Below are positions 42,568 to 58,054 of a DNA stretch of 64,000 nucleotides, in pieces (position 1 is the first letter of the stretch; each line of letters opens with the position of its first letter). The notes below the pieces were generated by a model. It searched no databases, had not been told where the DNA came from, and worked only from the letters and a program-made list of their open reading frames with translations. A program made the translations under genes and the position numbers. This DNA comes from Iamia majanohamensis (GTDB taxonomy: Bacteria > Actinomycetota > Acidimicrobiia > Acidimicrobiales > Iamiaceae), in NCBI RefSeq assembly GCF_028532485.1, contig NZ_CP116942.1, positions 1,860,001 through 1,924,000 of the forward strand, given 5' to 3'.

Positions 42568-43824
42568 GTGTCCGCCTTCGTCGATCGCGCCCAGCTCCAC
42601 GCGCGCGGCGGCGACGGGGGCGCCGGCGCGGTGTCGGTCCGCCGCGAGGCCCACGTGCCCCGAGGCGGCCCCGACGGCGGCGACGGCGGCCACGGTGGCG
42701 ACGTGTGGCTGGTGGCCGACCACAACGTGGCCTCCCTCCTGGCCTTCCGCGACCACCCGCACCGCCGGGCCACCTCCGGCACCCACGGCGCAGGCAAGCG
42801 ACGCCACGGCCGGACCGGCGACGACCTCGAGGTGGCGGTGCCCCCGGGGACGACCGTGCGGACCGGTGACGGCGAGGTCCTGGCCGACCTGACCACCTCC
42901 GGCGATCGCTGGCTCGCGGCCCGGGGCGGGCAGGGCGGCCGGGGCAACGCCCGGTTCCTCTCCAACCGCCGCCGGGCGCCCAGCTTCGCCGAGCAGGGTG
43001 AGGAGGGCGAGGAGCGCTGGCTGGAGCTCGAGCTGCGGCTCCTGGCCGACGTCGCCCTCGTCGGCTTCCCCAACGTGGGCAAGAGCACCCTCATCTCTCG
43101 CATCTCGGCGGCCAAGCCCCGCATCGCCGACTACCCGTTCACCACCCTCGAGCCCAACCTGGGCGTCGTCCGGGTCGAGGAGGGGCGGGAGCTGGTGGTG
43201 GCCGACATCCCCGGCCTCATCGAGGGGGCCAGCGAGGGGCGGGGCCTGGGCCTCCAGTTCCTCCGCCACGTCGAGCGGGCCCGGGTCCTCGCCGTCCTCG
43301 TCGACCTCTCGCCCCTCGCGCCCCACCCGCCGGCCGAGCAGGAGCGCATCCTCCTCGAGGAGCTGGAGGCCTACCAGCCCGACCTGGTGGAGCGGCCCCG
43401 GGTGCTGGTCGGCTCCCGGGCCGACATGGCCGAGCCCGCGCCCGACACCCCGCCGTGCGACCACGTCATCTCCGCCGTCACCGGCGACGGCCTCGACGCC
43501 CTGGTCGGCCACCTGGCCGGGCTGGTCGGCGAGGCCCGTGCCGTCGAGCCCCGCAGCGAGGGCTTCGTGGTCCACAGGCCGGCGCCCGTCGGCATCAGCG
43601 TCGAGCGGGACGAGGACGGCGCGCTGCGGGTGCACGGACGGGCCGCCGAGCGGGCCGTGGCCCTCTCCGACGTGTCGAGCCCGGACGCCCAGGCCTACGT
43701 GCGCGAGCGCCTCGACCGCCTCGGCGTGACCAAGGGGCTGGTGCGGGCCGGGGCCAAGGCCGGCGACGAGGTGCGCATCGGCGGCTTCTCCTTCGACTAC
43801 GTCCCCGACGACGAGTCGGGCTGA
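42568..43824 (+). CDS. obgE: GTPase Obg/CgtA
   Basis: The product has 418 residues. The glycine-rich Obg fold covers residues 1-155 (GGDGGAGAVSVRREAHVPRGGPDGGDGGHGGDVWL). The G domain has G1 GFPNVGKST, G2 FTTLEPNLG and G3 DIPGLIEGA. The C-terminal OCT domain ends in VRIGGFSFDYVPD. The G4 motif, normally NKxD, reads GSRAD at residues 282-286, while G5 (ISAVTGDG) is normal. Obg is an essential GTPase in late 50S assembly. The loss of the G4 Asn-Lys could change nucleotide affinity or specificity; the Asp is kept. proB follows after 292 bases. Confidence 0.94.
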   Translation: MSAFVDRAQLHARGGDGGAGAVSVRREAHVPRGGPDGGDGGHGGDVWLVADHNVASLLAFRDHPHRRATSGTHGAGKRRHGRTGDDLEVAVPPGTTVRTGDGEVLADLTTSGDRWLAARGGQGGRGNARFLSNRRRAPSFAEQGEEGEERWLELELRLLADVALVGFPNVGKSTLISRISAAKPRIADYPFTTLEPNLGVVRVEEGRELVVADIPGLIEGASEGRGLGLQFLRHVERARVLAVLVDLSPLAPHPPAEQERILLEELEAYQPDLVERPRVLVGSRADMAEPAPDTPPCDHVISAVTGDGLDALVGHLAGLVGEARAVEPRSEGFVVHRPAPVGISVERDEDGALRVHGRAAERAVALSDVSSPDAQAYVRERLDRLGVTKGLVRAGAKAGDEVRIGGFSFDYVPDDESG

Positions 43825-43862: not shown

Positions 43863-44120
43863 GTGATCACCGTCCGCAGGATCGTGGTGAGGACGGGACC
43901 GCCGGCGGCGACCAGGCCCGGGGGCCTCCGCGACGCCGAGGTCCCCCTCCGCCTCGGTGAGGGGACCGAGGTCGACGCGGTGCCGGGTCCCGCCGGTGCG
44001 GCCGGCTGCGACCTCCCGGCGCCACCCCGCTCGCCCGGGCCGGTCGGCCTTCTCGTTCGACGGGGGTCCGGCCTGCGGGCCAGGCTGCCGGTCGTGACCG
44101 CAGCGGACCCCGCCCGATGA
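43863..44120 (+). CDS. Possible small hypothetical protein between obg and proB
   Basis: From a GTG at 43863 a frame of 85 codons ends in a TGA that overlaps the proB ATG (ATGA), the coupling seen at many real gene junctions here. The predicted product (ITVRRIVVRTG at the start, many Gly, Ala and Pro) has no recognised family. The 292-base gap is otherwise unexplained. Weak support only. Confidence 0.3.
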   Translation: MITVRRIVVRTGPPAATRPGGLRDAEVPLRLGEGTEVDAVPGPAGAAGCDLPAPPRSPGPVGLLVRRGSGLRARLPVVTAADPAR

Positions 44121-45268
44121 CGAGCGACGTCGCCGCGCCGGGCGGCGCCGGAACCGGGCCCGTCGGCGGGCGCCGGACCGTCGTGGTGAAGGTCGGCTCG
44201 TCGTCGCTCACCGACGAGGCCGGCGCCATCGACGAGGACGCGGTGGCCAAGGTGTGCGCCGAGATCGCCACCGCCCGGGCGGCCGGGCACCGGGTGGTGG
44301 CGGTGAGCTCGGGGGCCATCGCCTCGGGCCTGCCCGTGCTGGGCCTCGACGGCGCCCGACCCCGTGACCCGGTGACCCTCCAGGCCGTGTCCGCCGTGGG
44401 CCAGAGCCGGCTGATGGGGGTGTGGGACCGCCACCTCGCGGCCCACGACCTCGTGGGGGGCCAGGTCCTCCTCGCCCCGCTCGACTTCGCCGTGCGGGAC
44501 CAGTACCTCCACGCCCGCGCCACCCTGGGCCGCCTGCTCGAGCTCGACGTCGTCCCCATCGTCAACGAGAACGACGCCATCGCCGACGACGAGATCCGCT
44601 TCGGCGACAACGACCGCATCGCCGCCCTCGTCGCCCACCTCGTCGGCGCCGAGGCCCTGGTGCTGCTCACCGACACCCCGGGGCTGCTCACCGCCGATCC
44701 CCGCTTCGACTCCGACGCCTCGTTGATCGAGGAGATCCTCGAGGTCGACCAGCACATGGAGGCGCTGGCCGGTGGGGCGGGCACGGCGCGGGGGAGCGGG
44801 GGCATGGCCACCAAGCTGGCCGCGGCCAAGATCGCCTCGTGGTCGGGGGTGCGCACCGTGATCGCCGCCGCCGACCGCCCCGGCGTGGTCGCCGACGCCA
44901 TGGCCGACGTGGCCGGCGTGGGCACCGTGGTCCGGCCCCGGACCCGGCGGCTGACGGCGCGGAAGCTGTGGATCGCCTTCGCGGTGGGCTCCAGCGGCAC
45001 CGTGGTGGTCGACGCCGGCGCCCGGCGGGCGCTGGAGGCCGACGGGCGATCCCTCCTGCCCGCCGGCGTCCGGGGCGCCGAGGGCCGCTTCGCCCCCGGT
45101 GCCGCGGTCGAGGTGGCCGACGAGGACGGCGCCGTGTTCGCCAAGGGCATCGTGGCCCTCGGCGTCGAAGCCCTGCGGTCCGTGGCCGGCGTCCGCACGG
45201 CGGACCTGCCCGAGGGCACCCCCCACGAGGTCATCCACCGCGACGACCTCGTCGTCCTCCCCGCCTGA
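44117..45268 (+). CDS. proB: Glutamate 5-kinase with PUA domain
   Basis: The product has 383 residues and catalyses the first step of proline synthesis (ATP + glutamate to glutamyl-5-phosphate). The amino-acid kinase domain has VVKVGSSSLTD, VSSGAIASG, PIVNENDAIADDEIRFGDND and GSGGMATKLAAAKIAS. A PUA domain occupies residues about 285-375. An extra 18 residues precede the family start. The second enzyme, ProA, is encoded 11.5 kb downstream instead of next door. Confidence 0.95.
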   Translation: MTSDVAAPGGAGTGPVGGRRTVVVKVGSSSLTDEAGAIDEDAVAKVCAEIATARAAGHRVVAVSSGAIASGLPVLGLDGARPRDPVTLQAVSAVGQSRLMGVWDRHLAAHDLVGGQVLLAPLDFAVRDQYLHARATLGRLLELDVVPIVNENDAIADDEIRFGDNDRIAALVAHLVGAEALVLLTDTPGLLTADPRFDSDASLIEEILEVDQHMEALAGGAGTARGSGGMATKLAAAKIASWSGVRTVIAAADRPGVVADAMADVAGVGTVVRPRTRRLTARKLWIAFAVGSSGTVVVDAGARRALEADGRSLLPAGVRGAEGRFAPGAAVEVADEDGAVFAKGIVALGVEALRSVAGVRTADLPEGTPHEVIHRDDLVVLPA

Positions 45269-45304
45269 CCCCTCGACCTCCGAGGCCCCCGAGGCCCCGC
45301 ATCC

Positions 45305-45423
45305 GTCCTGGTCTGGAGATGTGCCCTCCAGGGCCTGATCGCAGACCAGAACGGTGCGAGGAACGGCGGCGTGCCGTTCTGGTCTGGAGATGCGCCCTGG
45401 ACGGCCCGATCGCAGACCAGAAC
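45305..45423. repeat. Palindrome pair, family B (GTTCTGGTCTG ... CAGACCAGAAC), upstream pair
   Basis: Two 48-bp units (45305-45352 and 45376-45423) have 11-bp inverted arms around a 26-base centre. The second unit is perfect; the first has one mismatch. The centre itself contains a short GCCC/GGGC inverted repeat. They lie in the 203-base gap before the AbiEi/DUF559-like gene. Confidence 0.85.
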
Positions 45424-45471
45424 GCCGCTGGCCGGGGCCGACTGTCACACCGCCGCGAGAGGATCTCCTGC

Positions 45472-46422
45472 ATGGACCCGATGATCGAACGGGCCATCGC
45501 CGAGCGGGCCTCCTCACAGCTCGGCCTCCTCACCAGATCCCAGGCCCGGAGCGCAGGCATGTCGGCCAAGAGCATCCGTCACCGTCTCGACTCCGGCGCG
45601 TGGCGTCTGGTCGGCAACAGCGTCCTCTGGCCCGCCGTGCTCGCCGACGGCGTCCACCTGCGGATCATGGCGGCCTGCCTCGACGTCGGCGGTGTGGCCT
45701 CGCATCGCACGGCGGCGTGGCTCGACGCACCCGAGCGGGTCCCACCACCTGATCCCCTCGAGGTGCTGCTGCGCAAGGGCGGGTCGGTGCGCACGACCCC
45801 GCTGGCGCGGACCCACCTCACCACGAGCCTCCCCGAGGACGACGTCCGCACGGTCGCCGGCATCCCCACGACCAGTGCGGCCCGAACACTGCTCGGCCTG
45901 GCGGGACTCGTCCCCGCCGAGATCTCGTACAGCTCCTTCACGGGCTCGGTCGAGGAGGCCGTGCGGGCCGGGAGGGCATCGGATCGGTGGCTCTGGTGGC
46001 TGCTGGAGGAGCGACGCTGCCGGGGGCGCGACGGGGTCCGTGTGCTCGAGTCCGTCCTGGCCGAGCGAGCCCGCCTGGGTCCCACCGAGAGCTGGCTGGA
46101 GCGCGAGGCACTGCGCGTCCTCGAGGCGGCCGGCCTGCCACTCCCGACGGTCCAGCACGTGGTGCGCCGGCAGGGGGCGTTCGTGTCTCGGGTGGACCTC
46201 GCCTACGTCGCCGAGCGGGTGCTGATCGAGGTCGAGGGCAAGGACCACGACGGCCACGTGCAGCGAGCCGTCGACGCCCACCAGCGCAACCAGGGCCAGC
46301 TGCTCGGCCACACGGTCCTCACCTACACCTACGAGCAGGTCGTCCGCAGCCCGCACGTCCTCGTGGCCGAGGTGCGCGAGGCGCTCCACCTGGCCTGGTC
46401 CCGCCGGGTCGCAGCGGCCTGA
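45472..46422 (+). CDS. AbiEi-type winged-helix protein with DUF559/Vsr-like C-terminal domain
   Basis: The product has 316 residues. Residues about 5-55 match the N-terminal winged helix of AbiEi antitoxin-like proteins (GLLTRSQARSAGMSAKSIRHRLDSGAWRLV). Residues about 205-316 resemble the DUF559/Vsr-like PD-(D/E)xK fold: Glu in the first helix (WLEREALRVLEAAGLPLP), then RVDLAYVAERVLIEVEGKDHD. It is a common orphan actinobacterial protein with no AbiEii toxin partner next to it. GAGAGGA precedes the ATG. Pairs of family-B palindromes lie on both sides. Whether it cuts DNA is not known. Confidence 0.75.
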   Translation: MDPMIERAIAERASSQLGLLTRSQARSAGMSAKSIRHRLDSGAWRLVGNSVLWPAVLADGVHLRIMAACLDVGGVASHRTAAWLDAPERVPPPDPLEVLLRKGGSVRTTPLARTHLTTSLPEDDVRTVAGIPTTSAARTLLGLAGLVPAEISYSSFTGSVEEAVRAGRASDRWLWWLLEERRCRGRDGVRVLESVLAERARLGPTESWLEREALRVLEAAGLPLPTVQHVVRRQGAFVSRVDLAYVAERVLIEVEGKDHDGHVQRAVDAHQRNQGQLLGHTVLTYTYEQVVRSPHVLVAEVREALHLAWSRRVAAA

Positions 46423-46531
46423 GCCCCGGGCCCTGGAGCCGGCGACCGCGCCGGGCTCACCGGTCCGACCCCGGCTCCCGCGAGCCCGATCCCACCGGTC
46501 CGGGGACGTGTCATGGCCGGGCGAGGTGGCT

Positions 46532-46704
46532 GTCCTGGTCTGGGATGACGCCCTTCGGGGCAGATCCTCAGACCAGGACCGCATCGGACCGGGGGCCGTC
46601 GATCGCGCGACCAGGACACGGGGCCCGAGGTCGCCATCGGTGGCGGGCGTCGTCCCGTTCTGGTCTGAGATCACGCCCTTCGGGGCCGGTCCTCAGACCA
46701 GAAG
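46532..46704. repeat. Palindrome pair, family B, downstream pair
   Basis: Units at 46532-46579 (GTCCTGGTCTG/CAGACCAGGAC, perfect) and 46657-46704 (GTTCTGGTCTG/CAGACCAGAAG, one mismatch) are 48 bp each with 26-base centres that contain GCCCTTCGGGGC. They occupy most of the 354-base gap 46423-46776, in which no gene is seen. Confidence 0.85.
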
Positions 46705-46776
46705 GGCGATGGCCCGTGGGCCGACGCCGAGGCGCCGGGGTCGACGCAGCCCCGGATGTGGGCCGGGGCGGGAGGG

Positions 46777-47598
46777 TCAGGTGCCGGGCTGGGGGGTGCC
46801 GGGGGAGGGCTCGGAGGCCGGCTCGGGCAGGGGCTCGCCGGCCAGCTGCTCGGGGGTGGGGGCGGCGGCCTCGGCCGTGCCCAGGCCGAGCTCGGCCTTC
46901 AGCTGCGAGAGGCGGGTCTGGGCCTGGGTGTTCTGGGCGGCCTGCTCGACCTCGAGCATCCGGCCCTCGACGGACTGGCCGGAGAGCTCCGACATGCCCT
47001 TGGCCTTGGCGTAGCGGGCCTCGATCTTGTCCCGCACCTCGTTCATGGTGGGGACGTCCTCGCCCACGGTGGCCGACAGCGAGGCCATGGCCGTGTTCAT
47101 GGACTCCTGCATCTTGGCCTGCTCCAGCTGGCTGAGGAGCTTCTGCTGCTCGGCCAGCTTGCGCTGCAGGAGGACGCCGTTCTGGGACACGGCCGCCTTG
47201 GCCTGGTCCGATGCCTGGGCCGCGCTGAGCGACATGGCCTTCAGGTCCTCGACCTCGGCCTCGACGGTGATGAGCTGGTTGGCGATGGTCTCGGCCGCCC
47301 GCTCGTACTCGGCGGCCTTGGCCTCGTCGCCGCCCTTGCGGGCCTCCTCGGCCATGAGGATCGCCTGGCGGGCGTTGCCGTTGAGCTTCTCCAGCTGCTC
47401 CATCGACCGGTTGAGCCGCATCTCGGTCTGCTTCTGCTGGGCGATGACGTTGGCGGCCTGCTCGGTGAGGGTGCGGTGGTTGCGCTGCGCCTCCTCGATG
47501 GCCTGCTGCAGCTGGACCTTGGGATCGGCCTTCTCGTTGAACTTCTGGTTGCCGCTCGCGGTGAGGTAGGCCCAGAAGCGCCTGAAGAGCTTGATCAT
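46777..47598 (-). CDS. pspA: PspA/IM30-family membrane-stress protein
   Basis: The product has 273 residues, almost entirely coiled coil, as in the PspA/Vipp1 (ESCRT-III-like) superfamily. The amphipathic start MIKLFRRFWAYLTASGNQKFNEKADP is the membrane-binding helix, and QLEQAIEEAQ-like (QLQQAIEEAQRNHRTLTEQAANVIAQQKQTE) follows. The Pro-rich tail is disordered. PspA coats and protects damaged membrane. ATG 47598 is preferred over the in-frame ATG 47610, because TATGCT lies seven bases before 47598 and would overlap the earlier codon. No PspF or PspC gene is adjacent. Confidence 0.92.
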   Translation of the reverse strand: MIKLFRRFWAYLTASGNQKFNEKADPKVQLQQAIEEAQRNHRTLTEQAANVIAQQKQTEMRLNRSMEQLEKLNGNARQAILMAEEARKGGDEAKAAEYERAAETIANQLITVEAEVEDLKAMSLSAAQASDQAKAAVSQNGVLLQRKLAEQQKLLSQLEQAKMQESMNTAMASLSATVGEDVPTMNEVRDKIEARYAKAKGMSELSGQSVEGRMLEVEQAAQNTQAQTRLSQLKAELGLGTAEAAAPTPEQLAGEPLPEPASEPSPGTPQPGT

Positions 47599-47605
47599 GG
47601 GGGCG

Positions 47606-47611
47606 AGCATA
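47606..47611 (-). promoter_or_regulatory. -10 hexamer TATGCT for pspA (leaderless)
   Basis: On the minus strand the hexamer ends seven bases before the ATG at 47598. It is the best match to the TATNNT consensus among the leaderless sites. Confidence 0.55.
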
Positions 47612-47708
47612 CCGATCCGGGCGCGGGCTCTCCGGGGCGGACGGCCCGCAGGGTCTCCCGGGCCGGTCGGGGCGCGGGCCCCCGACCGCCCTCCTCGACC
47701 GGGTGGTG

Positions 47709-49637
47709 TCAGCCCCGACGTCCGAGCGGGCCCGGCAGGCGTCGCCGCAGCCCGGCGTCGTCGGCCACGCCGAGGGCGATGGCCGCGCCCAGGTACACGA
47801 TCCCGCCCACCGGCACCGCGGCGGCCACCCACAGCGGGAGGAGGTCCGGGTCGAGGGCGCTCAGGCCGACCACGGTGCCGGCCACGGCCGCGGCCATGAG
47901 CGCCCCGGCGGCCAGGCAGCCGCCCAGCGTCCGCACGAACCCGCCCAGGTCGAACCCGGGCGGGAGCCGGCGCAGCAGCACGGCGAGGGCCAGGGCCGAG
48001 GCCAGCAGGTAGGCGACGGAGTAGGCCGAGGTGAGCCCGATGAGCCCGAACGGGGCGACGAGCACCACGGCGAAGAGGATGTTGGTGAGGTTCTCGCCGG
48101 AGTTGATCCAGAACGGCCGGCGGGTGTCCTGCACGGCGTAGAAGGCGCGCAGGATGAACAGGTAGACGGAGAACCCGAGCAGGCCGGGGGCGAAGCCGGC
48201 CAGGCTCCGGGCCACGGGGATGGCGTCGTTGAAGGTGCCGCCGGGGCCGAGGGGCGAGGACTCCGGGCCCAGCTGGACCACGAGGGTGGCCAGGGTGAGG
48301 TACCCGACCGACGCGGGGACCATCACTGCGACCAGGAGCCGCAGCCCCTGCAGCAGGCGGTCGTGGAACAGGTCCCACCGCTCCCGCACGAAGGCCCGGG
48401 CCAGGTCGGGCTGGAAGGTGGTCATGAGCGACACGGCGAGCAGCCCGTGCGGGAGCTGGAAGAAGGTGAACGCCACCTGGTAGCTGCGCACCGCGCTCTC
48501 GTCGCCGACGGCGAGCCAGTTGACGGTCTGGGCCGCGACCTGGTTGGCGATCACGTAGCCGAGCGTCCACCCCGACAGCCCCGCGGCCACCCGCACCGCG
48601 GGGTGGCGCAGCGAGGGCCGGAAGCGGAGGCGGAACCCGGCCCGCCACAGGGCGGGCAGCAGCGACAGGGCCATGGCCACGATGCCGGCGGTGGTGCCCA
48701 GGCCGAGCAGCAGCAGCAGGCCCCGGTCGTCGTCGACCTGGGCCAGGGTGAGGTCGCCCTCGGTCGTCAGGGTGGCGCCGACCAGGACGCCGACGACGAT
48801 GACGTTGTTGAGCACCGGCGCCCACGCCGCTGCGAAGAACCGGCGCCGGGCGTTGAGCAGGGCGGAGCCGAGGGCCATCACCCCGTAGAAGAAGATCTGG
48901 GGGACGAAGAGGAGGGCCAGGCCGATGCCCACCCGCCGGAACTGGGCCGCGTCCACGTCGGGGTCGACGTTCTGGGTGTAGAGGAGCATGAGGGCGGGCG
49001 AGACCACCAGCCCGACCAGGGTGAGCACGGCGAGGGCGACGAGGGTCACCGACACCACCGCGTCGGTGGCGGCCCGGTCCCGCTTCTGGAGGTGCTCGGT
49101 GAAGAGGGGGACGAGGGTGGCGGTGAGGATCCCGCCCAGGATCAGCTCGTAGACGATGTTGGGGGTGTTGTTGGCCAGCAGGTAGTCGTCGGCCAGGGCG
49201 CCCGTGAGGCCGAACACGGCGAGGAGCCGGGCCACCCCCGTGACCCGCGACAGCGCCGTGCCCGTGGCCACGACGATGTTGTCCTTGAGCAGGCGCCGAC
49301 CGCCCGACGGGCGGTCCTCGTCGGTGTCCGCCCCGCCCGGCTCCGGCCCCCGGGTGCCGGAGCCGGCCTCGGTGGCCCCCGTCGACCCGTCGTCGGCGTC
49401 GTCGGGGGCCTCGTCGACGGCTGGCAGATCGGCCGGGGTGAGCAGGGCGACCTCGCCGGTCTCGCCCACCGCGGCCGACTCGTTGGCTGCGGTCAGCGCG
49501 GTGGTCCGCTGGCGCGCCGCGACCGACGCCCCGAGGCGGGCCACGTCCCCCAGCACGTCGTCCCAGCGGGGGCGGCCGTGGCGGTCCAGCGGAGGCTGCG
49601 ACCGCAGCAGCCCGGGGCCGTGGTCGTCGTCGCTCAC
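47709..49637 (-). CDS. murJ: MurJ/MviN lipid II flippase
   Basis: The product has 642 residues with fourteen membrane segments. The MATE-like core starts near residue 115 (SRVTGVARLLAVFGLTGALADDYLLANNTPNIVYELILGGILTATLVPLF, with the MurJ Arg and NxPN motif). An additional 110-residue acidic, disordered cytoplasmic N-terminus is present. MurJ moves lipid II across the membrane for wall synthesis. The GTG overlaps the stop of a short upstream gene (GTGA). It is the last gene of the operon starting at 53503. Confidence 0.94.
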   Translation of the reverse strand: MSDDDHGPGLLRSQPPLDRHGRPRWDDVLGDVARLGASVAARQRTTALTAANESAAVGETGEVALLTPADLPAVDEAPDDADDGSTGATEAGSGTRGPEPGGADTDEDRPSGGRRLLKDNIVVATGTALSRVTGVARLLAVFGLTGALADDYLLANNTPNIVYELILGGILTATLVPLFTEHLQKRDRAATDAVVSVTLVALAVLTLVGLVVSPALMLLYTQNVDPDVDAAQFRRVGIGLALLFVPQIFFYGVMALGSALLNARRRFFAAAWAPVLNNVIVVGVLVGATLTTEGDLTLAQVDDDRGLLLLLGLGTTAGIVAMALSLLPALWRAGFRLRFRPSLRHPAVRVAAGLSGWTLGYVIANQVAAQTVNWLAVGDESAVRSYQVAFTFFQLPHGLLAVSLMTTFQPDLARAFVRERWDLFHDRLLQGLRLLVAVMVPASVGYLTLATLVVQLGPESSPLGPGGTFNDAIPVARSLAGFAPGLLGFSVYLFILRAFYAVQDTRRPFWINSGENLTNILFAVVLVAPFGLIGLTSAYSVAYLLASALALAVLLRRLPPGFDLGGFVRTLGGCLAAGALMAAAVAGTVVGLSALDPDLLPLWVAAAVPVGGIVYLGAAIALGVADDAGLRRRLPGPLGRRG

Positions 49638-49858
49638 GGCCGGACCTCCCCGACGACGAGGCGTCCACCGGGTGCCGGGAGGCGCAGCGGACCGGTCCCC
49701 GGTGGGCGCTGGGTGGCCGGCGAGGGCCCCGACGGCGAGGCTGGGACCACCGGCGACGCCGGTCGCCCACCTCGGCGAGACGGCAGGTCAGCAGCGGTCG
49801 GCGCGGCCTCCCGGCCCACGGTGGTCGCGCCGGTCGAGGGGAGGAGCGGGTCGCTCAC
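49634..49858 (-). CDS. Small Pro-rich hypothetical protein wedged between two coupled genes
   Basis: This gene of 74 codons starts with GTG at 49858, which overlaps the stop of the upstream gene (GTGA). It ends in a TGA that overlaps the GTG of murJ, again GTGA. Both junctions have the same 4-base geometry used throughout the window. The product (MSDPLLPSTGATTVG..., rich in Pro, Gly, Ala and Arg) has no recognised domain or membrane segment. Without it, a 217-base hole would break an otherwise gapless operon. A real but low-complexity gene is likely; an in-frame relic of the MurJ N-terminal extension is an alternative. Confidence 0.55.
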   Translation of the reverse strand: MSDPLLPSTGATTVGREAAPTAADLPSRRGGRPASPVVPASPSGPSPATQRPPGTGPLRLPAPGGRLVVGEVRP

Positions 49859-50682
49859 GAGGGCGGCGCAGGGGATGCGCCGCCGCCCGGGGTGCCCGGG
49901 TCGGGCGCCGCCGCCGGGCGGCCCGCCGCGCCCACCTCGTCGAGGGCCTGGCGGAGGGCCTCCATCTCGGTGACCAGGCCCTCCACGTCGCCGTCGACCG
50001 AGCGGGCCGACGACGTGCCGGCCCCGCTGGAGAGCTCGATGGCCCGGGTCACCGTCTCGTCCAGCCGGGCGTCGAGCAGCCGGAGCCGGTCGACGGCGTC
50101 GTTGATGACGGCCTCCATCCGCTCGGCGCTGGCGACCTGGGCCCGGAGGGCCTCGGCCGTCTGCTCCAGGCGGCTGCCGGCGGCCCAGGGCTCGTCGGCC
50201 TGGTCCTCGACCTGGGCCAGCTCCCGCCGCACCCCCTCGAGGTCGATGCGGCGCCGGGCCCCGACGAGGGTGTTGCCCTGCTGGGAGATGCGCCAGATCT
50301 CGTCGACGCCGTCGTCGAGGCGGGTGGCGATCCGGCCCAGGTGGTCCCGCAGCGGGCCCTTGTCCATGGAGGCGACGGCGGCGTCGAAGCGACGACGGGA
50401 GTCGAGGGCGTCGGAGACGAAGCGGCGCCACGGCTCCTGCACGCCGAAGGGGTCGGGGTTCACCCGCCGCTCGTTGCGGGGCACGGCCCAGAGCACCTTG
50501 CCGCCGTAGGCGGCCGCCCCGGCCACGGCCCCGGCGACGAGGCCCAGGGGCAGGGCCACCGGGGCGGTGGCGACGAGGGTGACCGCAGCGGCGGCCCCGG
50601 CCAGGAGGATGGAGCTGGGCGCGGTGACGGCCCGGGCCACCGGCGGCGACCAGAAGCGGTCGCGGAAGCTGAGCCGGGCCAC
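49855..50682 (-). CDS. Hypothetical membrane protein with coiled coil
   Basis: The product has 275 residues. Two membrane segments lie at about residues 22-62 (SILLAGAAAAVTLVATAPVALPLGLVAGAVAGAAAYGG), followed by a long helical/coiled region (residues about 85-235, with RRIDLEGVRRELAQVEDQ and EALRAQVASAERMEAVINDAVDRL). The Pro/Ala tail is disordered. I do not recognise a named family. It starts five bases after the VWA lipoprotein gene, so the two are probably made together. Confidence 0.78.
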   Translation of the reverse strand: MARLSFRDRFWSPPVARAVTAPSSILLAGAAAAVTLVATAPVALPLGLVAGAVAGAAAYGGKVLWAVPRNERRVNPDPFGVQEPWRRFVSDALDSRRRFDAAVASMDKGPLRDHLGRIATRLDDGVDEIWRISQQGNTLVGARRRIDLEGVRRELAQVEDQADEPWAAGSRLEQTAEALRAQVASAERMEAVINDAVDRLRLLDARLDETVTRAIELSSGAGTSSARSVDGDVEGLVTEMEALRQALDEVGAAGRPAAAPDPGTPGGGASPAPPS

Positions 50683-50687
50683 GGCGC

Positions 50688-52511
50688 CTAGAAGTTGCTC
50701 ACCACGGCGGTGAACACCTTGGTGATGGACTCGGGGTCGCTGGCGTCGTAGGCGGTGGAGTTGGTGGCCTCGGCGATCTGGTTCAGCACCTCGAGGTCGG
50801 CGTCGGCGCCGTAGGCGATGGGGAACACCCGCACCGGCGTGGCCAGCTCGCCTGTCGTCGACCGGCCCAGGTCCGACAGCAGCTGCTCGAGCTGCTCCTC
50901 GTCGTCCTCGGTGCTGCCGTCCTCGTTACGGCCGTCGGTGAGGACCACCACGGCGTTGATGCGGGCCGGGTCGTAGGCCTCGATGGCGTCGGTGAAGGAG
51001 TCCTGGGTGACCTCGTAGAGCGGGGTGCCGGCGCGCGGGAACTGGGCGTCGATCTCGGCCCGCAGCTCCTCGCGGGTGTCGCCGATCCGCCCCGGCGGCA
51101 CGACGTCGACGTACGCGGCCTGCTCGTCGGGTCCGAGGCCGGTGGTGAAGATGCGCAGGCCGACCTCGTCGTCGTCCTTGAACTCCTCGAGGGCCTCGAT
51201 GGCCGCCTGCTTGGCCAGCTCCAGCTTGGTGCCGCCGCCCTCGACGGGGTCGCCCATGGAGCCCGACACGTCGAGGGCGATGGTGACCCGGGCGCTCTTG
51301 CGCTGCTCGGACCAGTTGTCGAGCAGCTGCACCATCACGTCGGGGTCCGGCACCTCGAGCAGCGTCGAGGGCTGGGTGGGGTCGACGTTGTTGGTCTCGT
51401 CGATGGGGGCGTCGACGGCGACGTCGGGGTTCCCGGGCCGGAAGCCGAACTCCAGCACCTCCTGCTGGTTGGCCGGGTCCTTGATGTGGTCCTCGAAGGC
51501 CTCGGCCGCCTCCCGCTCCTCGTCGGACACCCACTCGGCGTCGAGGACGATGTAGGGGTTGTCGGAGTAGATCGTCCCCTCCTCCGGGTAGATCGCCACG
51601 AGGGGGATCTCCGGGGGCTCGGGGCGCTCGCCGGCCTCGAGGTTCCCGTCCGGGTTGCCCTGGTTGTAGTCGACGACCGACTTCTCCTCGACGGCCGCGG
51701 CCGACACGTAGGTGAGCGACGTGCCCCGCTGGTCGGTGCGGTACCAGTTGTTGAGGAAGGTGAGGGTGGTGTCGCCGTAGTGGACCACGGAGGACTCGAT
51801 GGCCTCGGCCTCGGCCGCCACCTCCGGGTTCGCCAGGTCCTCTCGCGACAGGCCCTCGGTCTTGCCGGTGGAGGAGTAGGCCTGGGCGATGAGGGCGGAG
51901 AGGCCGCTGGTGGAGAAGTTGGGGTTGGTCTTGCCCAGGCGGAACGGACCCCACTCGGGGTGCCCGTAGGCGGCCCAGCCCTCGGGGTCGCGGGAGAGCT
52001 GGAGGATGTCGGTCCAGCCGATGGGCTCCTCCGGGTAGCCGAGGGCGTCGGCCATGGGCTCGGGCATGGCGATGACCAGCGGCGTCTGCATGAAGGGCTC
52101 GGCGTCGCCCACGATGGGCGCCTGGCCGTCGTCCTCGAGGCGCTGGTTGACCACGGCTCCCCAGGTCGAGGCGGCGGGCGACCAGACCACCGGGCGGGGC
52201 CCCTCGACCTGCTCGTCCCAGCCCTCGGCGAGCAGGTCGGCGGCGGCGCCCGAGGCCTTGGTCTGGGGGCGGGCGAAGGCGCACCGTCCCCCGTCCAGGT
52301 CCGAGGCCTCGGAGCTGTTGAACTCCTGGGCCAGCTGGGTCATGAGGGCGGCCTTCTCGGACGAGACGGCCAGGTCGACGACGATGCAGTCGCCGGGGTC
52401 GCCCAGCGGGTTGCCCTCCTCGGCCACCTCGTCGGAGCCGCCCCCGTTGCTGCACGAGGCCACCACGGTCGCAGCCACCACCAGCAGGGCGGCCAGTCGG
52501 GGGGTCCTCAT
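50688..52511 (-). CDS. Lipoprotein with substrate-binding-like and VWA domains
   Basis: The product has 607 residues. A signal peptide ends in a lipobox (VVASC). Residues about 40-360 resemble a type-2 periplasmic substrate-binding protein (FNSSEASDLDGGRC, VVWSPAASTWGAVVNQRL, PIGWTDILQLSRDPEGW, SYDxPYIVLDAEWVS-like segments). A VWA domain follows, with an intact MIDAS DVSGSMG near residue 414, plus the matching Thr and Asp motifs (GTPLYEVT, VLTDGRNE). It should bind a ligand and a divalent metal on the outer face of the membrane. The ATG overlaps the upstream stop (ATGA). Confidence 0.87.
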   Translation of the reverse strand: MRTPRLAALLVVAATVVASCSNGGGSDEVAEEGNPLGDPGDCIVVDLAVSSEKAALMTQLAQEFNSSEASDLDGGRCAFARPQTKASGAAADLLAEGWDEQVEGPRPVVWSPAASTWGAVVNQRLEDDGQAPIVGDAEPFMQTPLVIAMPEPMADALGYPEEPIGWTDILQLSRDPEGWAAYGHPEWGPFRLGKTNPNFSTSGLSALIAQAYSSTGKTEGLSREDLANPEVAAEAEAIESSVVHYGDTTLTFLNNWYRTDQRGTSLTYVSAAAVEEKSVVDYNQGNPDGNLEAGERPEPPEIPLVAIYPEEGTIYSDNPYIVLDAEWVSDEEREAAEAFEDHIKDPANQQEVLEFGFRPGNPDVAVDAPIDETNNVDPTQPSTLLEVPDPDVMVQLLDNWSEQRKSARVTIALDVSGSMGDPVEGGGTKLELAKQAAIEALEEFKDDDEVGLRIFTTGLGPDEQAAYVDVVPPGRIGDTREELRAEIDAQFPRAGTPLYEVTQDSFTDAIEAYDPARINAVVVLTDGRNEDGSTEDDEEQLEQLLSDLGRSTTGELATPVRVFPIAYGADADLEVLNQIAEATNSTAYDASDPESITKVFTAVVSNF

Positions 52512-53503
52512 CGGGTGAACTCCTCGTCGAGGCGGTAGAGCAGGTCGGGCGCCGGGAGCCCCGTGGTGCGGGCCGCGTCGCCCGACCACCCGGCCTCGGC
52601 CAGCCCGTCGGTGACAGTCTGGCCCGTCACCTGGCCCCGCAGGCGGTCGAGGGCCCCGGGTCCGTCCGGCCCCAGCGGGGCCAGGACGACGCCGAAGGTC
52701 GCAGTCGGGTCGGATGCCGGAGCCGAGATGGGAAGGACCTGGAGGCCGCGCGACCGACCCCCTGCGGTGCCGGCTGCGTCGACGGCCAGACCCTCGATGG
52801 TCACGAGGGCGTCGTAGCGACCCGGCTGCGTCACGATCGCGGTGGCCTCCTCGGCGAGGGTGCCGGTGTCTGCGCTGTCGAGGAGGTCGTCGAGCAGGGT
52901 CCCGACGTCGGTTCCGTCGATGTCGTCGATGCCGACGTCGGTGCTCTCGACCAACCCGGCGGCGGCGGCGCCGAGCACCAGGGGACCGGACGCGCTGGCC
53001 AAGGTGGGGACGCCGACCCGGGCGAGGCCGTCGGCGGCGCTGCCGGCCACGCACTGCCATCCAGCCAGCTGCTCCTCGCCGCAGAGCATCGGATCGGCGC
53101 TGAGGACGGCGAGGGCCGACGAGGCCAGTGGGACCGGGTCGCCCTCGTCGGCGATCGGGGGGAGCTGGTCCTCGTCCCGCGCCACGTCGAGGATCTGGGG
53201 CCAGGGATCGAGGGTCGCCCAGGCGTCGTAGGGGGCGGTGACCTCCGCCATCTCGGCCAGGGCCTCATCGGCGGTGGCCACCTCGACCGATCCGACGCCG
53301 TCGAGGGCGCCCAGCGCCTCGCATGCAGCATCGCCCAGGTCCGCGTCACACAGCAGGCGCACCGGGGCGTCGGACCCCCCGCCACCCTCGGTGTCGTCGG
53401 ACCCCCCGTCGTCGCCCGCGAGCGCGCTGCGCAGCACCAGGGCGCCGGCCACCAGGGCGACCGCAGCGAGGACGGCGAGCAGCCGCGCCAGCCGGGGGGG
53501 CAT
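52508..53503 (-). CDS. Exported substrate-binding-like protein, first gene of the envelope operon
   Basis: The product has 331 residues. An N-terminal membrane anchor (LARLLAVLAAVALVAGALVL) and a Gly/Asp linker lead to an exported domain. Its pattern is like that of the substrate-binding part of the next gene (SVEVATADEALAEM, PYDAWATLDPWPQILDVARD, and a short Cys pair CGEEQLAGWQC). It may be a shortened paralogue that lacks the VWA domain. The ATG at 53503 has TACCGT eight bases upstream. Function unknown. Confidence 0.78.
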   Translation of the reverse strand: MPPRLARLLAVLAAVALVAGALVLRSALAGDDGGSDDTEGGGGSDAPVRLLCDADLGDAACEALGALDGVGSVEVATADEALAEMAEVTAPYDAWATLDPWPQILDVARDEDQLPPIADEGDPVPLASSALAVLSADPMLCGEEQLAGWQCVAGSAADGLARVGVPTLASASGPLVLGAAAAGLVESTDVGIDDIDGTDVGTLLDDLLDSADTGTLAEEATAIVTQPGRYDALVTIEGLAVDAAGTAGGRSRGLQVLPISAPASDPTATFGVVLAPLGPDGPGALDRLRGQVTGQTVTDGLAEAGWSGDAARTTGLPAPDLLYRLDEEFTR

Positions 53504-53511
53504 GGCGCCCG

Positions 53512-53517
53512 ACGGTA
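53512..53517 (-). promoter_or_regulatory. -10 hexamer TACCGT for the envelope operon (leaderless)
   Basis: On the minus strand the hexamer ends eight bases before the ATG at 53503. Confidence 0.5.
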
Positions 53518-53553
53518 GTGCTCCGCCCCCTCACCCCCGGCCCCTCACCCCCC

Positions 53554-53664
53554 GAACGTTGAGCACATGTGCGTCACCCACGGCGACATGTGCTCAACGT
53601 TCCTCAGCGGATCCCGGACGTTGAGCACATCTGCGCCACATGCGGCGACAAGTGCTCGAGGTTC
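53554..53664. repeat. Palindrome pair, family C (GAACGTTGAGCACATGT ... )
   Basis: The first unit (53554-53602, 49 bp) has perfect 17-bp inverted arms and a 15-base centre. The second (53616-53664, 49 bp) is a diverged copy with several arm mismatches. They fill the gap between the envelope-operon promoter and the end of the CbxX-like gene. Confidence 0.88.
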
Positions 53665-53673
53665 GGGGGGCGG

Positions 53674-55128
53674 TCAGGTGGGGGAGGGGGGCTGCGGCGG
53701 CGGGGTGCGGCGGATGGCGGAGTCGGCGCTCTCGTCGAGGTCGGGGATGTCCGCGGCCACGAGGGTGGTGAGGTCCTCGTCGGAGAGCTCCTCCACGTCG
53801 ACCACCCGGCTGGCGTGGCGGGCCACCGCGGCCTCGAAGAGGTTCCGCGCCACCCGGCCGTTGCCGAAGCCCCGGTCGCGGTGCTGGGCGTCGAACCAGG
53901 CCCGCAGCTTGTCCTCGGCCCCCTCGTCGCAGCGGTAGCCGTTGCGCTCGCCGAGCGACGAGAAGATGGCCACCAGCTCGTCGGTGGTGTAGTCGTCGAA
54001 CACGATGGTCTTGGGGAAGCGCGACCGCAGCCCGGGGTTGGCCCCGATGAGCTCGCCCATCTCCTCGGGGTAGCCGGCGACGACCACGACGACCCGGTCG
54101 CGGCGGTCCTCGATCAGCTTCACCAGGGTGTCGATCGCCTCCCGCCCGAAGTCGTTGCCGCCCCCGCGCACCAGCGCGTAGGCCTCGTCGATGAGCAAGA
54201 GGCCCTCGTCGGCCCGGTCGAAGACCTCGACCACCTTGGTGGCCGTCTGGCCCACGAACCCGGCGACCAGGTCACTGCGGTCCGCCTCGACCAGGTGGCC
54301 CCGCTCGACCACCCCCAGGGTCCGGTAGATCTGCGCCAGCAGGCGGGCCACGGTGGTCTTGCCCGTGCCGGGGTTGCCGGCGAAGACGAGGTGCCGGCTC
54401 TGCTCGACCACCGGCAGGTCGCGCTCCTGGCGCAGGTTCTGGACCCGGATGAGGTCGGTCACCAGGCGCACCTCGGCCTTGACCCCCTCGAGGCCGATGA
54501 GGTCGTCGAGCTCGGCCATGAGCTCGTCGAGGGGGCGGGGCGGGCCCAGGTCGTCCTGCGCCGGGGGCCCGCCGGCCTCCTCGCCGCCGAGGGTGGCCGG
54601 GTCGGGGACGCCGGCGGCGTCGCCCTCGGCCCCGGCCGCGGCGCCGGCCCGGGCCATGGTGGCCCGGAAGCGCTCGATGGCCCGCAGCTCGGTCTCGGTC
54701 GTGTACGGGTCGAGGGCGGCCACCGCGAAGGCGATGGCCACGGCACGGTCGTGGTAGGTGCGGGCGTGGCCGGTGCCGTGGCGGCGGTCGTAGCGGGCCA
54801 GGAGGTCGAGCAGGGTCGACGGGGTGTCGAGCCAGGTGCGCCGGCCGGTGACCAGCCCGGCCCGGCGCAGGTCGTCGGGGGTCGCCTTCAGCAGGTCGCC
54901 GCCCAGGCGGGGGGCGAAGATCACCAGCAGCGACCACAGCTCGGCGTCGGTGTGGACCTCGTCGCAGTCGACGAAGGCGGCGGCCAGGTTGAACGCCTCC
55001 CGCGTGACGTCCTCGGCCAGGGCGGCGCGGTCGACGCCCTCGACCGTGCCGGCCAGCGACTGGACGATGGGGGTGAGCGACGCCTCGAAGGCCTCGGTCG
55101 CGCTCTCCAGGCCCGGATCGGCGATCAC
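53674..55128 (-). CDS. CbxX/CfqX-type AAA+ ATPase
   Basis: The product has 484 residues. The N-terminal 200 residues are helical with no named domain. The C-terminal AAA+ module has Walker A GNPGTGKT (251-258), Walker B LLLIDEAY (310-317), and VVVVAGYPEEM and GLRSRFPKTIVFDDY, which mark the CbxX/CfqX subfamily (also found in EccA of type VII secretion and in Rubisco activases). No Rubisco or ESX genes are near, so the client is unknown. The GTG overlaps the stop of the acetyltransferase gene (GTGA). Confidence 0.88.
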   Translation of the reverse strand: MIADPGLESATEAFEASLTPIVQSLAGTVEGVDRAALAEDVTREAFNLAAAFVDCDEVHTDAELWSLLVIFAPRLGGDLLKATPDDLRRAGLVTGRRTWLDTPSTLLDLLARYDRRHGTGHARTYHDRAVAIAFAVAALDPYTTETELRAIERFRATMARAGAAAGAEGDAAGVPDPATLGGEEAGGPPAQDDLGPPRPLDELMAELDDLIGLEGVKAEVRLVTDLIRVQNLRQERDLPVVEQSRHLVFAGNPGTGKTTVARLLAQIYRTLGVVERGHLVEADRSDLVAGFVGQTATKVVEVFDRADEGLLLIDEAYALVRGGGNDFGREAIDTLVKLIEDRRDRVVVVVAGYPEEMGELIGANPGLRSRFPKTIVFDDYTTDELVAIFSSLGERNGYRCDEGAEDKLRAWFDAQHRDRGFGNGRVARNLFEAAVARHASRVVDVEELSDEDLTTLVAADIPDLDESADSAIRRTPPPQPPSPT

Positions 55129-55773: not shown

Positions 55774-56744
55774 CACGAGGTGCCGGGAGGCCGCGCGGAT
55801 TGGTGACCATCCCCGGGTCGGAGCGGTGGCTCGCGTTTGATGGCGAGTGCGCCCAACACAACCGACCAGGGGAGGTCCCTCCCATGATGCGCGCGCTCGA
55901 TCCCGAAGTCAGCGATGCGGTCTTCGTCACCCTCGAAGCCCTGCTGCCGGCGCCTCCCACGCACCGCATCGGAGGTGGACGACCAAGGGTCCCTGACCGG
56001 CTCATCTTCCGTGGTCTGCTGCAACGGATCGTCACCGGGGCCGCCTGGGAGACCATCGAGTTCCTGCTGGACCACCAGGTCTCTGACACCACCCTTCGAG
56101 CTCGCCGCGACGAATGGGTGCACGCCGGAGTCTTTGACCGGCTCGCCGCACAAGCCCGCGCCGCCTACGACACGATCATCGGTCTCGACACCGGCCACGT
56201 CGTCATCGACGGCAGCAACCACCTCGCTCCCTGCGGCGGCCCCGGCACCGGTGTCGGCCCAGGTCAGAAGGGCCGCCTCGGCTGGAAGTGGTGCACCGGC
56301 GTCGACGCCGCAGGCATCCCGCTGGCCTGGACCATCGACGGCGCGAACCGCAACGACTACAAGATGCTCGGCCCCACCCTGGACGCCATCGCCGCCGATC
56401 CGAACCACCTCAAGATCGGCACCCTGCACCTCGACCGAGGCTTCGGCTACGCCTCACTGCCCGACCGCCTCGCCGGCTACGACATCACCGCAGTCGACGT
56501 GATCCCCCGCAACCACCCCGGCCAAGGCCGGACCCCACTGGTCGGCTTCGGACACCGCTGGGTCGTCGAGCGGACCAACTCCTGGCTGTCGAACTTCGGA
56601 CAGCTCCGCCGCAACACCGACCGACGCACCGAGCACCGTCACGCCGCCCTCTGCCTCGCCACCACCCTGCTCATCACCGCCAAGCTCATCGACCACCGCA
56701 ACCACCACACCCGACCAATCCGCTGAGCCTCCGGGCACCTCGTG
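55774..56744 (+). mobile_element. IS5-like insertion sequence, complete
   Basis: The 971-bp element is bounded by imperfect inverted repeats of about 30 bp. The left end begins CACGAGGTGCC and continues GGGAGGC...GCGGATTGG; the right end is the complement with about four differences. ACGT flanks both ends (55770-55773 and 56745-56748) and is a plausible 4-bp target duplication. Because ACGT is itself palindromic, it could also be part of the repeats. One transposase gene lies inside. The element sits between the GNAT gene and proA, breaking no visible gene. Confidence 0.85.
55884..56726 (+). CDS. IS5-family DDE transposase
   Basis: The product has 280 residues in one uninterrupted frame. An N-terminal helix-turn-helix-like region (RVPDRLIFRGLLQRIVTGAAWETIEFLL) precedes the catalytic core, whose DDE residues are in VIDGSN, LHLDRGF and WVVERTNSWL. 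The latter matches the IS5-type signature R-x7-K region (ERTNSWLSNFGQLRRNTDRR). The ATG follows AGGGGAGG with 8-base spacing, a stronger ribosome-binding site than in the host genes. The gene looks intact, so the element may be active. Confidence 0.92.
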   Translation: MMRALDPEVSDAVFVTLEALLPAPPTHRIGGGRPRVPDRLIFRGLLQRIVTGAAWETIEFLLDHQVSDTTLRARRDEWVHAGVFDRLAAQARAAYDTIIGLDTGHVVIDGSNHLAPCGGPGTGVGPGQKGRLGWKWCTGVDAAGIPLAWTIDGANRNDYKMLGPTLDAIAADPNHLKIGTLHLDRGFGYASLPDRLAGYDITAVDVIPRNHPGQGRTPLVGFGHRWVVERTNSWLSNFGQLRRNTDRRTEHRHAALCLATTLLITAKLIDHRNHHTRPIR

Positions 56745-56796
56745 ACGTCTGGCCGTCGCACGGCCGGCGGCCTCGGAGCGGGCCGGAGGGCCCCGG

Positions 56797-56802
56797 TACG
56801 CT
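56797..56802 (+). promoter_or_regulatory. -10 hexamer TACGCT for proA (leaderless)
   Basis: The hexamer is seven bases before the GTG at 56810. It lies downstream of the IS insertion, so proA keeps its -10, but its -35 region now lies within 35 bases of the element. Confidence 0.55.
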
Positions 56803-56809
56803 CGGGCGG

Positions 56810-58054
56810 GTGAGCACCGCCATCGCCGACCTCGGACGACGGGCCCGGGCCGCGTCCCGCACCCTGGCCCGCACCTCCACCGCCCAGCGCGACGCCGCCC
56901 TCCTCGCCGGCGCCGACCTGCTGGTGAGCCGGGCCGACGAGGTCCTCGACGCCAACGAGCGCGACGTGGTCGCCGCCGTCGAGGGGGGTGTGGCGGCCAC
57001 CGTCGTCGACCGGCTCCGCCTCGACGTGGGTCGGGTGGAGGCCATGGCGGCCGGGCTCCGCCAGGTGGCGGCCCTGCCCGACCCCGTGGGCGAGGTCCTC
57101 GACGGCTGGGTCCGGCCCAACGGGCTGCGCATCTCCCGGGTGCGGGTTCCCCTCGGCGTGGTCGCCATCATCTACGAGAACCGCCCCAACGTCACGAGCG
57201 ACGCCGCCGGGCTGTGCCTCAAGTCCGGCAACGTGGCCTTCCTCCGGGGGTCGTCGGGCGCCATCCGCTCCAACGTCGCCATCGCCGGCATCCTGCGCGA
57301 GGCCTACGGCAAGGTCGACCTGCCCGCCGACGCCCTCGTCCTGGTCGAGGACACCAGCCGCGAGGCTGCGGTGGCCTTCATGCAGCAGCGCGACAGCATC
57401 GACTGCCTCATCCCCCGGGGTGGGCCGTCGCTGATCCGCTCGATCCTCGACAACGCCACGGTCCCCTACGTCATCGACGGCGACGGCAACTGCCACGTCT
57501 ACGTCGACGCCGCCGCCGACCTCGACATGGCCCGGGCCCTGGTCGTCAACGGCAAGACCCAGCGGCCCTCGGTGTGCAACGCCACGGAGTCGGTGCTCGT
57601 CCACGAGGACGTGGCCGCCTCGTTCCTGCCCGACCTGGCCGCCGCCCTCGAGGGCGTGGCCCTGGTGGGCGACGAGCGCACGCGCGAGCTGGTGCCCGAG
57701 GCGGGGGCGGCCACCGAGGACGACTGGGCCCAGGAGTTCCTCGACCTGCGGCTGGCCGTGCGCGTGGTCCCGAGCCTCGACGCCGCCGTCGACCACATCG
57801 CCCGCTACGGCAGCGGCCACTCCGAGGCCATCGTCACCACCGACCTCCTCGCCGCCGACCGCTTCACCGCCGAGGTCGACGCTGCCGCCGTGCTGGTCAA
57901 CGCCTCGACCCGGTTCGTCGACGGCGAGGAGTTCGGCTTCGGCGCCGAGATCGGCATCTCCACCCAGAAGCTGCACGCCCGGGGCCCCATGGGGCTCCGC
58001 GAGCTCACCACGGCCAAGTACGTGGTGCGCGGCGAGGGCCAGACCCGGGGCTGA
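56810..58054 (+). CDS. proA: Glutamate-5-semialdehyde dehydrogenase (gamma-glutamyl phosphate reductase)
   Basis: The product has 414 residues and reduces glutamyl-5-phosphate with NADPH in proline synthesis. The aldehyde-dehydrogenase fold shows PLGVVAIIYENRPNVTSDAAGLCLKSGNV and the active-site cysteine in RPSVCNATE, plus GFGAEIGISTQKLHARGPMGL near the C-terminus. The GTG start fits the leaderless promoter. proB lies 11.5 kb upstream. The IS element sits 65 bases before the start. Confidence 0.95.
   Translation: MSTAIADLGRRARAASRTLARTSTAQRDAALLAGADLLVSRADEVLDANERDVVAAVEGGVAATVVDRLRLDVGRVEAMAAGLRQVAALPDPVGEVLDGWVRPNGLRISRVRVPLGVVAIIYENRPNVTSDAAGLCLKSGNVAFLRGSSGAIRSNVAIAGILREAYGKVDLPADALVLVEDTSREAAVAFMQQRDSIDCLIPRGGPSLIRSILDNATVPYVIDGDGNCHVYVDAAADLDMARALVVNGKTQRPSVCNATESVLVHEDVAASFLPDLAAALEGVALVGDERTRELVPEAGAATEDDWAQEFLDLRLAVRVVPSLDAAVDHIARYGSGHSEAIVTTDLLAADRFTAEVDAAAVLVNASTRFVDGEEFGFGAEIGISTQKLHARGPMGLRELTTAKYVVRGEGQTRG

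Follow-up and report, generated by a model that had tools for sequence, protein, structure and literature searches.

The window (the whole 64,000-nt stretch of the Iamia majanohamensis genome that was analyzed) holds a minus-strand gene run at 47709–53503 that proved to be real, as far as it was confirmed, but incompletely annotated. The first-pass annotation had described five genes here, of which A, B, C and murJ are present, while a small protein between C and MurJ is unsupported. The pspA gene directly downstream and an AAA+ ATPase gene upstream were both overlooked, hence the conserved unit covers approximately 46777–55128, with the gene order AAA+ ATPase, A, B, C, murJ, pspA, all on the minus strand:

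53674–55128, minus strand: AAA+ ATPase, 484 aa, GTG start (Pfam AAA and AAA_lid_6)
53512–53517, minus strand: leaderless-type -10 (TACCGT, TANNNT motif) of the A-B-C-murJ unit, 8 nt before the ATG
52508–53503, minus strand: A, exported SBP-like protein, 331 aa (hhalign to the B profile)
50688–52511, minus strand: B, lipoprotein with SBP and C-terminal VWA domains (SBP_bac_11, VWA)
49855–50682, minus strand: C, helical membrane protein (AF2 model)
49634–49858, minus strand: ORF 'D', probably not a gene (codon-position GC)
47709–49637, minus strand: MurJ, MviN/MOP superfamily (PF03023)
47606–47611, minus strand: leaderless-type -10 (TATGCT, TANNNT motif) of pspA, 7 nt before the ATG
46777–47598, minus strand: PspA/IM30, ESCRT-III superfamily (PF04012)

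The cluster is flanked in the window by genes with Pfam matches to GTP1_OBG (42568–43821), AA_kinase and PUA (44117–45265), and Aldedh (approximately 56777–58051), which we take to be obgE, proB, and proA, respectively. An IS4/5-family transposase gene (DUF4096 and DDE_Tnp_1; 55881–56723, plus strand) is situated between a GNAT gene and proA, and a 'tRNA-???' reported by ARAGORN at 56157–56248 falls within it and is probably false. An AbiEi_4/DUF559-type gene (45469–46419, within 45294–46726) has palindromes of approximately 44 nt on either side (TCTGGTCTG...CAGACCAGA), a pattern with 11 exact-arm copies genome-wide (control pattern: 0). Two tandem palindromic elements (TGAGCACATGTCGCC...) at 53560–53658, immediately 5' of the A promoter, are possibly an operator or a REP-like element.

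Protein B was matched by SBP_bac_11 (E = 8.5e-12) and VWA (E = 5.3e-8) in Pfam, and its AF2 model (pLDDT 77) gave matches to both SBP and VWA structures. Across families B has 55–65% identity; the lipobox Cys20 is invariant in the family alignment, and the MIDAS of the VWA domain is intact, as previously proposed, with D414, S416, S418, T496, and D526 invariant in 24 homologues. No Pfam match was obtained for A; profile comparison relates it, as a diverged homologue, to the SBP region of B (hhalign probability 97.3%, E = 1.7e-11, approximately 126 columns), and it carries four cysteines (C52, C61, C141, and C151) that are invariant among 18 homologues. ABC importer binding proteins have a cognate permease and ATPase, whereas no gene for either lies within the window's cluster. 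The suggestion that A and B are sensors or scaffolds rather than importers thus appears reasonable, given an SBP fold without transporter genes, the fusion to VWA, and the presence of PspA alongside.

Protein C begins, in its AF2 model (pLDDT 88), with two hydrophobic helices at the N-terminus; long helices and a long C-terminal coiled coil come after them. Sequence searches of Pfam, NCBIfam, and the PDB found no convincing relative, and a PDB fold search returned weak, generic helical matches only. A kinship of C with XpaC/TelA was dropped, as no C homologue matched PF10112. The same genome encodes a second, diverged C-family gene (G000:C1:3872632-3873117, L203) whose neighbours look like an ATP synthase cluster. 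The 'hidden small protein' at 49634–49858 is probably not a gene: its codon-position GC values are 0.82/0.76/0.84, compared with approximately 0.98 at position 3 in the neighbouring genes, and it sits where relatives often have an N-terminal extension of MurJ. In most relatives murJ starts on the stop codon of C, which leaves no space for a small ORF.

MurJ was identified by PF03023 (E = 8.2e-67; 226 bits, cut-off 27.4) and is homologous to solved MurJ structures; its TIGR01695 score of 231 is slightly below the equivalog cut-off of 235.55. It keeps R18, R24, and D39 (T. africanus numbering), while R52, E57, and R255 are absent, as they are in most other actinobacterial MurJ examined. MurJ of this kind often carries a variable, low-complexity N-terminal extension. 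PspA (PF04012, E = 6.6e-32), a protein of membrane repair, is the only one found in the genome and is homologous to the Vipp1/PspA structures with which it was compared; PspC was not detected, with no PF04024 match in the genome. The AAA+ ATPase is of the CbbX/SpoVK/EccA-like type with AAA_lid_6, matching CbbX 3zuh (E = 1.8e-50) as well as EccA1. A MoxR-VWA system was therefore rejected, the partner AAA protein not being of the MoxR type, and so was anti-phage defence, as PADLOC gave no matches save generic ones to the AAA protein.

Neighbourhoods were compared in 118 genomes of the order (order sample; the named relatives are Acidimicrobiales) and in a named census of the best 80 B loci from GTDB genomes, 51 of which have at least 4.5 kb downstream and which are mostly Acidimicrobiales MAGs. 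In addition, B and C profiles were searched against 346 genomes of the phylum, with B loci counted at 426 bits or more. Within the order, B and C are nearly inseparable, C following B in 50 of the 51 census loci. PspA follows in 39 and MurJ in 27 (24 of them with PspA); in the other 12 loci a search of 7 kb downstream gave no same-strand PspA. Of the 67 census loci whose upstream sequence is long enough, 50 have the AAA+ ATPase 5' of B.

In the order sample, B was present at convincing scores in 26 of the 118 genomes (one or two loci being cut by contig ends), and PspA came directly after C or after MurJ in 22 of these, 11 having MurJ in between and 11 not. PspA itself is present in 91 genomes of the sample. 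Table inspection revealed MurJ immediately 5' of PspA in 24 genomes, 13 of which have no B there, and reduced versions of the cluster (C-MurJ-PspA, AAA-MurJ-PspA, MurJ-PspA, and C-PspA) occur as well; the AAA, A, B, and C genes can all be missing while MurJ-PspA stay (L095, L098, L102).

The AAA-A-B-C-pspA order is conserved across classes, recurring outside Acidimicrobiia, for instance in Nitriliruptorales. PspA stands beside B in 10 of the 16 B loci of other classes, MurJ in none of the 16; among these ten, L198 has a gene in the C position that matches C no more than weakly. Six more divergent B genes (L194–L197, L199, and L200) had no detectable C-family, PspA, or MurJ neighbours. They share the two-domain SBP-VWA architecture found elsewhere in Actinomycetota (426–570 bits to the B profile) and differ in this neighbourhood. 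Across loci, the conserved unit reads CbbX/SpoVK-like AAA+ ATPase, A, B, C, optional murJ, and pspA.

The gene junctions (ATGA, a 5-nt gap, and GTGA) are in the sequence as claimed, and so is a leaderless-type -10 element before A. Of 24 A genes, 14 carry a TANNNT motif 6–8 nt ahead of their start codon (background 0). For pspA, 35 of the 41 loci of the order sample have it at the same distance from the ATG (background 0.5%), and in the census the leaderless motif precedes pspA in 41 of 50 loci. It is rare before murJ (2/53) and B (1/25). Several loci of other classes have a GGAG-like Shine-Dalgarno sequence before pspA in place of the leaderless motif. A scan for sigma-70 consensus promoters and terminators found nothing. 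The motif distribution suggests two transcription units, a predicted A-B-C-(murJ) unit and a predicted pspA unit.

Some Acidimicrobiales have murJ lodged between C and pspA, with the first codon of murJ lying on the stop codon of C; an in-frame murJ start overlaps that stop by 4 nt in 48 of 56 loci that have both C and MurJ (two collections pooled, some genomes counted in both). This slot is occupied by two types of MurJ, the actinobacterial PNIVYELILGG type of the window genome and a PNLLQNLLGEG type, which form deep clades (SH-aLRT 100; 7 and 4 B-linked members) in a quick tree with SH-aLRT as its sole support measure. A second MurJ of the window genome (2197305–2198945 on G000:C1, L092) belongs to a third group, whose members in relatives lie between the recN/steA/mctB genes and pyrG. 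The PspA-linked MurJ is the sole PF03023 match in G034, G046, G111, and G113.

We lean, by a little, towards reading the cluster as a phage-shock-like (PspA) module for envelope stress that has so far gone undescribed and belongs to Acidimicrobiia and some further Actinomycetota, the function being deduced from gene order and domain content. As PspA is the constant partner and MurJ an optional one, the locus would be a branch of the phage-shock systems and not a regulator devoted to MurJ. The lipoprotein B and the exported A may sense the state of the envelope or a ligand outside, with the VWA domain binding a partner via its MIDAS. C would relay this to the cytoplasmic face of the membrane and recruit PspA (a contact guessed from gene order), which would protect or reshape the membrane, and the AAA+ ATPase could remodel PspA or C assemblies. 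In part of Acidimicrobiales, murJ would have become translationally coupled to the module, and its co-expression might coordinate the flipped lipid II supply with the module proteins. Some observations weigh against such a model. AAA proteins of the CbbX-like kind have a wide range of substrates; the genes are separable (MurJ-PspA alone, or PspA missing as in the 12 census loci), hence the module is not indivisible, and a pspA promoter of its own argues against obligatory co-expression.

The link to MurJ, from which the first-pass annotation had derived a control of wall precursor flipping, is real and tight where it exists, but facultative (27/51 loci in the census, 11/26 in the order sample, and none in other classes). 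The SBP-VWA genes are unlinked from murJ outside Acidimicrobiales and about evenly linked and unlinked inside the order. With C, and mostly PspA, as the constant partners, control of flipping does not best describe what the genes do in general. That A, B, and C act together as a sensor devoted to regulating MurJ through a C-MurJ contact and translational coupling seems unlikely to us, even if the start of murJ on the C stop codon, the scarcity of its own promoter motif, two anciently separated MurJ clades in a single slot, and three census loci with MurJ and no same-strand PspA within reach (in one of them, L289, a pspA gene lies close by in the opposite orientation) would all fit it, as would the regulation of mycobacterial MurJ by protein partners (PMC6180346). 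B and C lack a linked MurJ in 24 of the 51 census loci, as does B in each of the 16 other-class loci, and the linkage is confined to the proB-proA interval, where 27 of the 37 census loci located there have MurJ linked to B, against 0 of the 14 elsewhere (Fisher p = 1.5e-6, relatedness ignored). B-C-PspA is also kept outside this interval, and MurJ occupies it also without A, B, or C.

The same distribution lends itself to a positional coincidence, in which murJ and AAA-A-B-C-pspA would be old residents of the proB-proA interval that share a transcript without functional linkage. The loci L086, L091, L094, L118, and L122, where murJ neighbours proB or proA while A, B, C, and PspA are all lacking, agree with this explanation, which we find doubtful. 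Against it, murJ sits exactly between C and pspA, overlaps C by 4 nt, and is represented in this slot by a second clade as well, all of which goes beyond bare proximity. The coupling of MurJ is real where it occurs but tied to a chromosomal niche, so that C and MurJ may be functionally linked. We would also give a low probability to the most far-reaching scheme, an envelope-repair pathway from a ligand-binding VWA lipoprotein that reads the exterior, through C as a new membrane adaptor family, to the ESCRT-III-like PspA and a dedicated AAA+ remodeler, with direct control of lipid II flipping by C-MurJ contact in one order.

The preferred reading, a PspA-centred module, has counterparts among described systems. 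PSP systems have in common a PspA/IM30 core, here with a putative membrane partner gene near pspA (22/26 order-sample loci). Classical proteobacterial and firmicute PSP systems have PspC, whereas the genome of this locus has no PF04024 match; mycobacterial PSP uses PspM, which is distinct from PspB and PspC (PMC11237479). The mycobacterial/corynebacterial ClgR-PspA-PspM-PspN system is another actinobacterial case in which PspA directly adjoins a small membrane protein that has two TM helices (PMC11237479); the AAA+, SBP, SBP-VWA, and often murJ genes are additions here. A further counterpart is found in the PspA/Snf7-AAA+ operons that carry transporter and solute/peptidoglycan-binding genes (Ravi et al. 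2024, PMC11237479), which likewise combine PspA, an AAA+ ATPase, and extracytoplasmic binding proteins. They include an ABC ATPase, a permease, and PBPB-OmpA proteins, while the present locus has SBP-VWA, C, and MurJ without a transporter. MurJ (MviN) itself is the lipid II flippase (PF03023, MOP fold), and its context here is unlike that of mycobacterial MurJ with its partners CwlM/FhaA. The main text of PMC11237479 does not mention VWA, MurJ, or CbbX, nor that of PMC9239133 VWA or MviN; the neighbourhood may be listed in the supplementary tables of either paper.

The conserved operon provides a testable protein set in which PspA occurs with an AAA+ ATPase, a putative membrane partner, putative extracytoplasmic sensors, and sometimes a translationally coupled MurJ. 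It touches upon two questions: what recruits bacterial PspA filaments and takes them apart, and how the flipping of wall precursors is tied to membrane stress.
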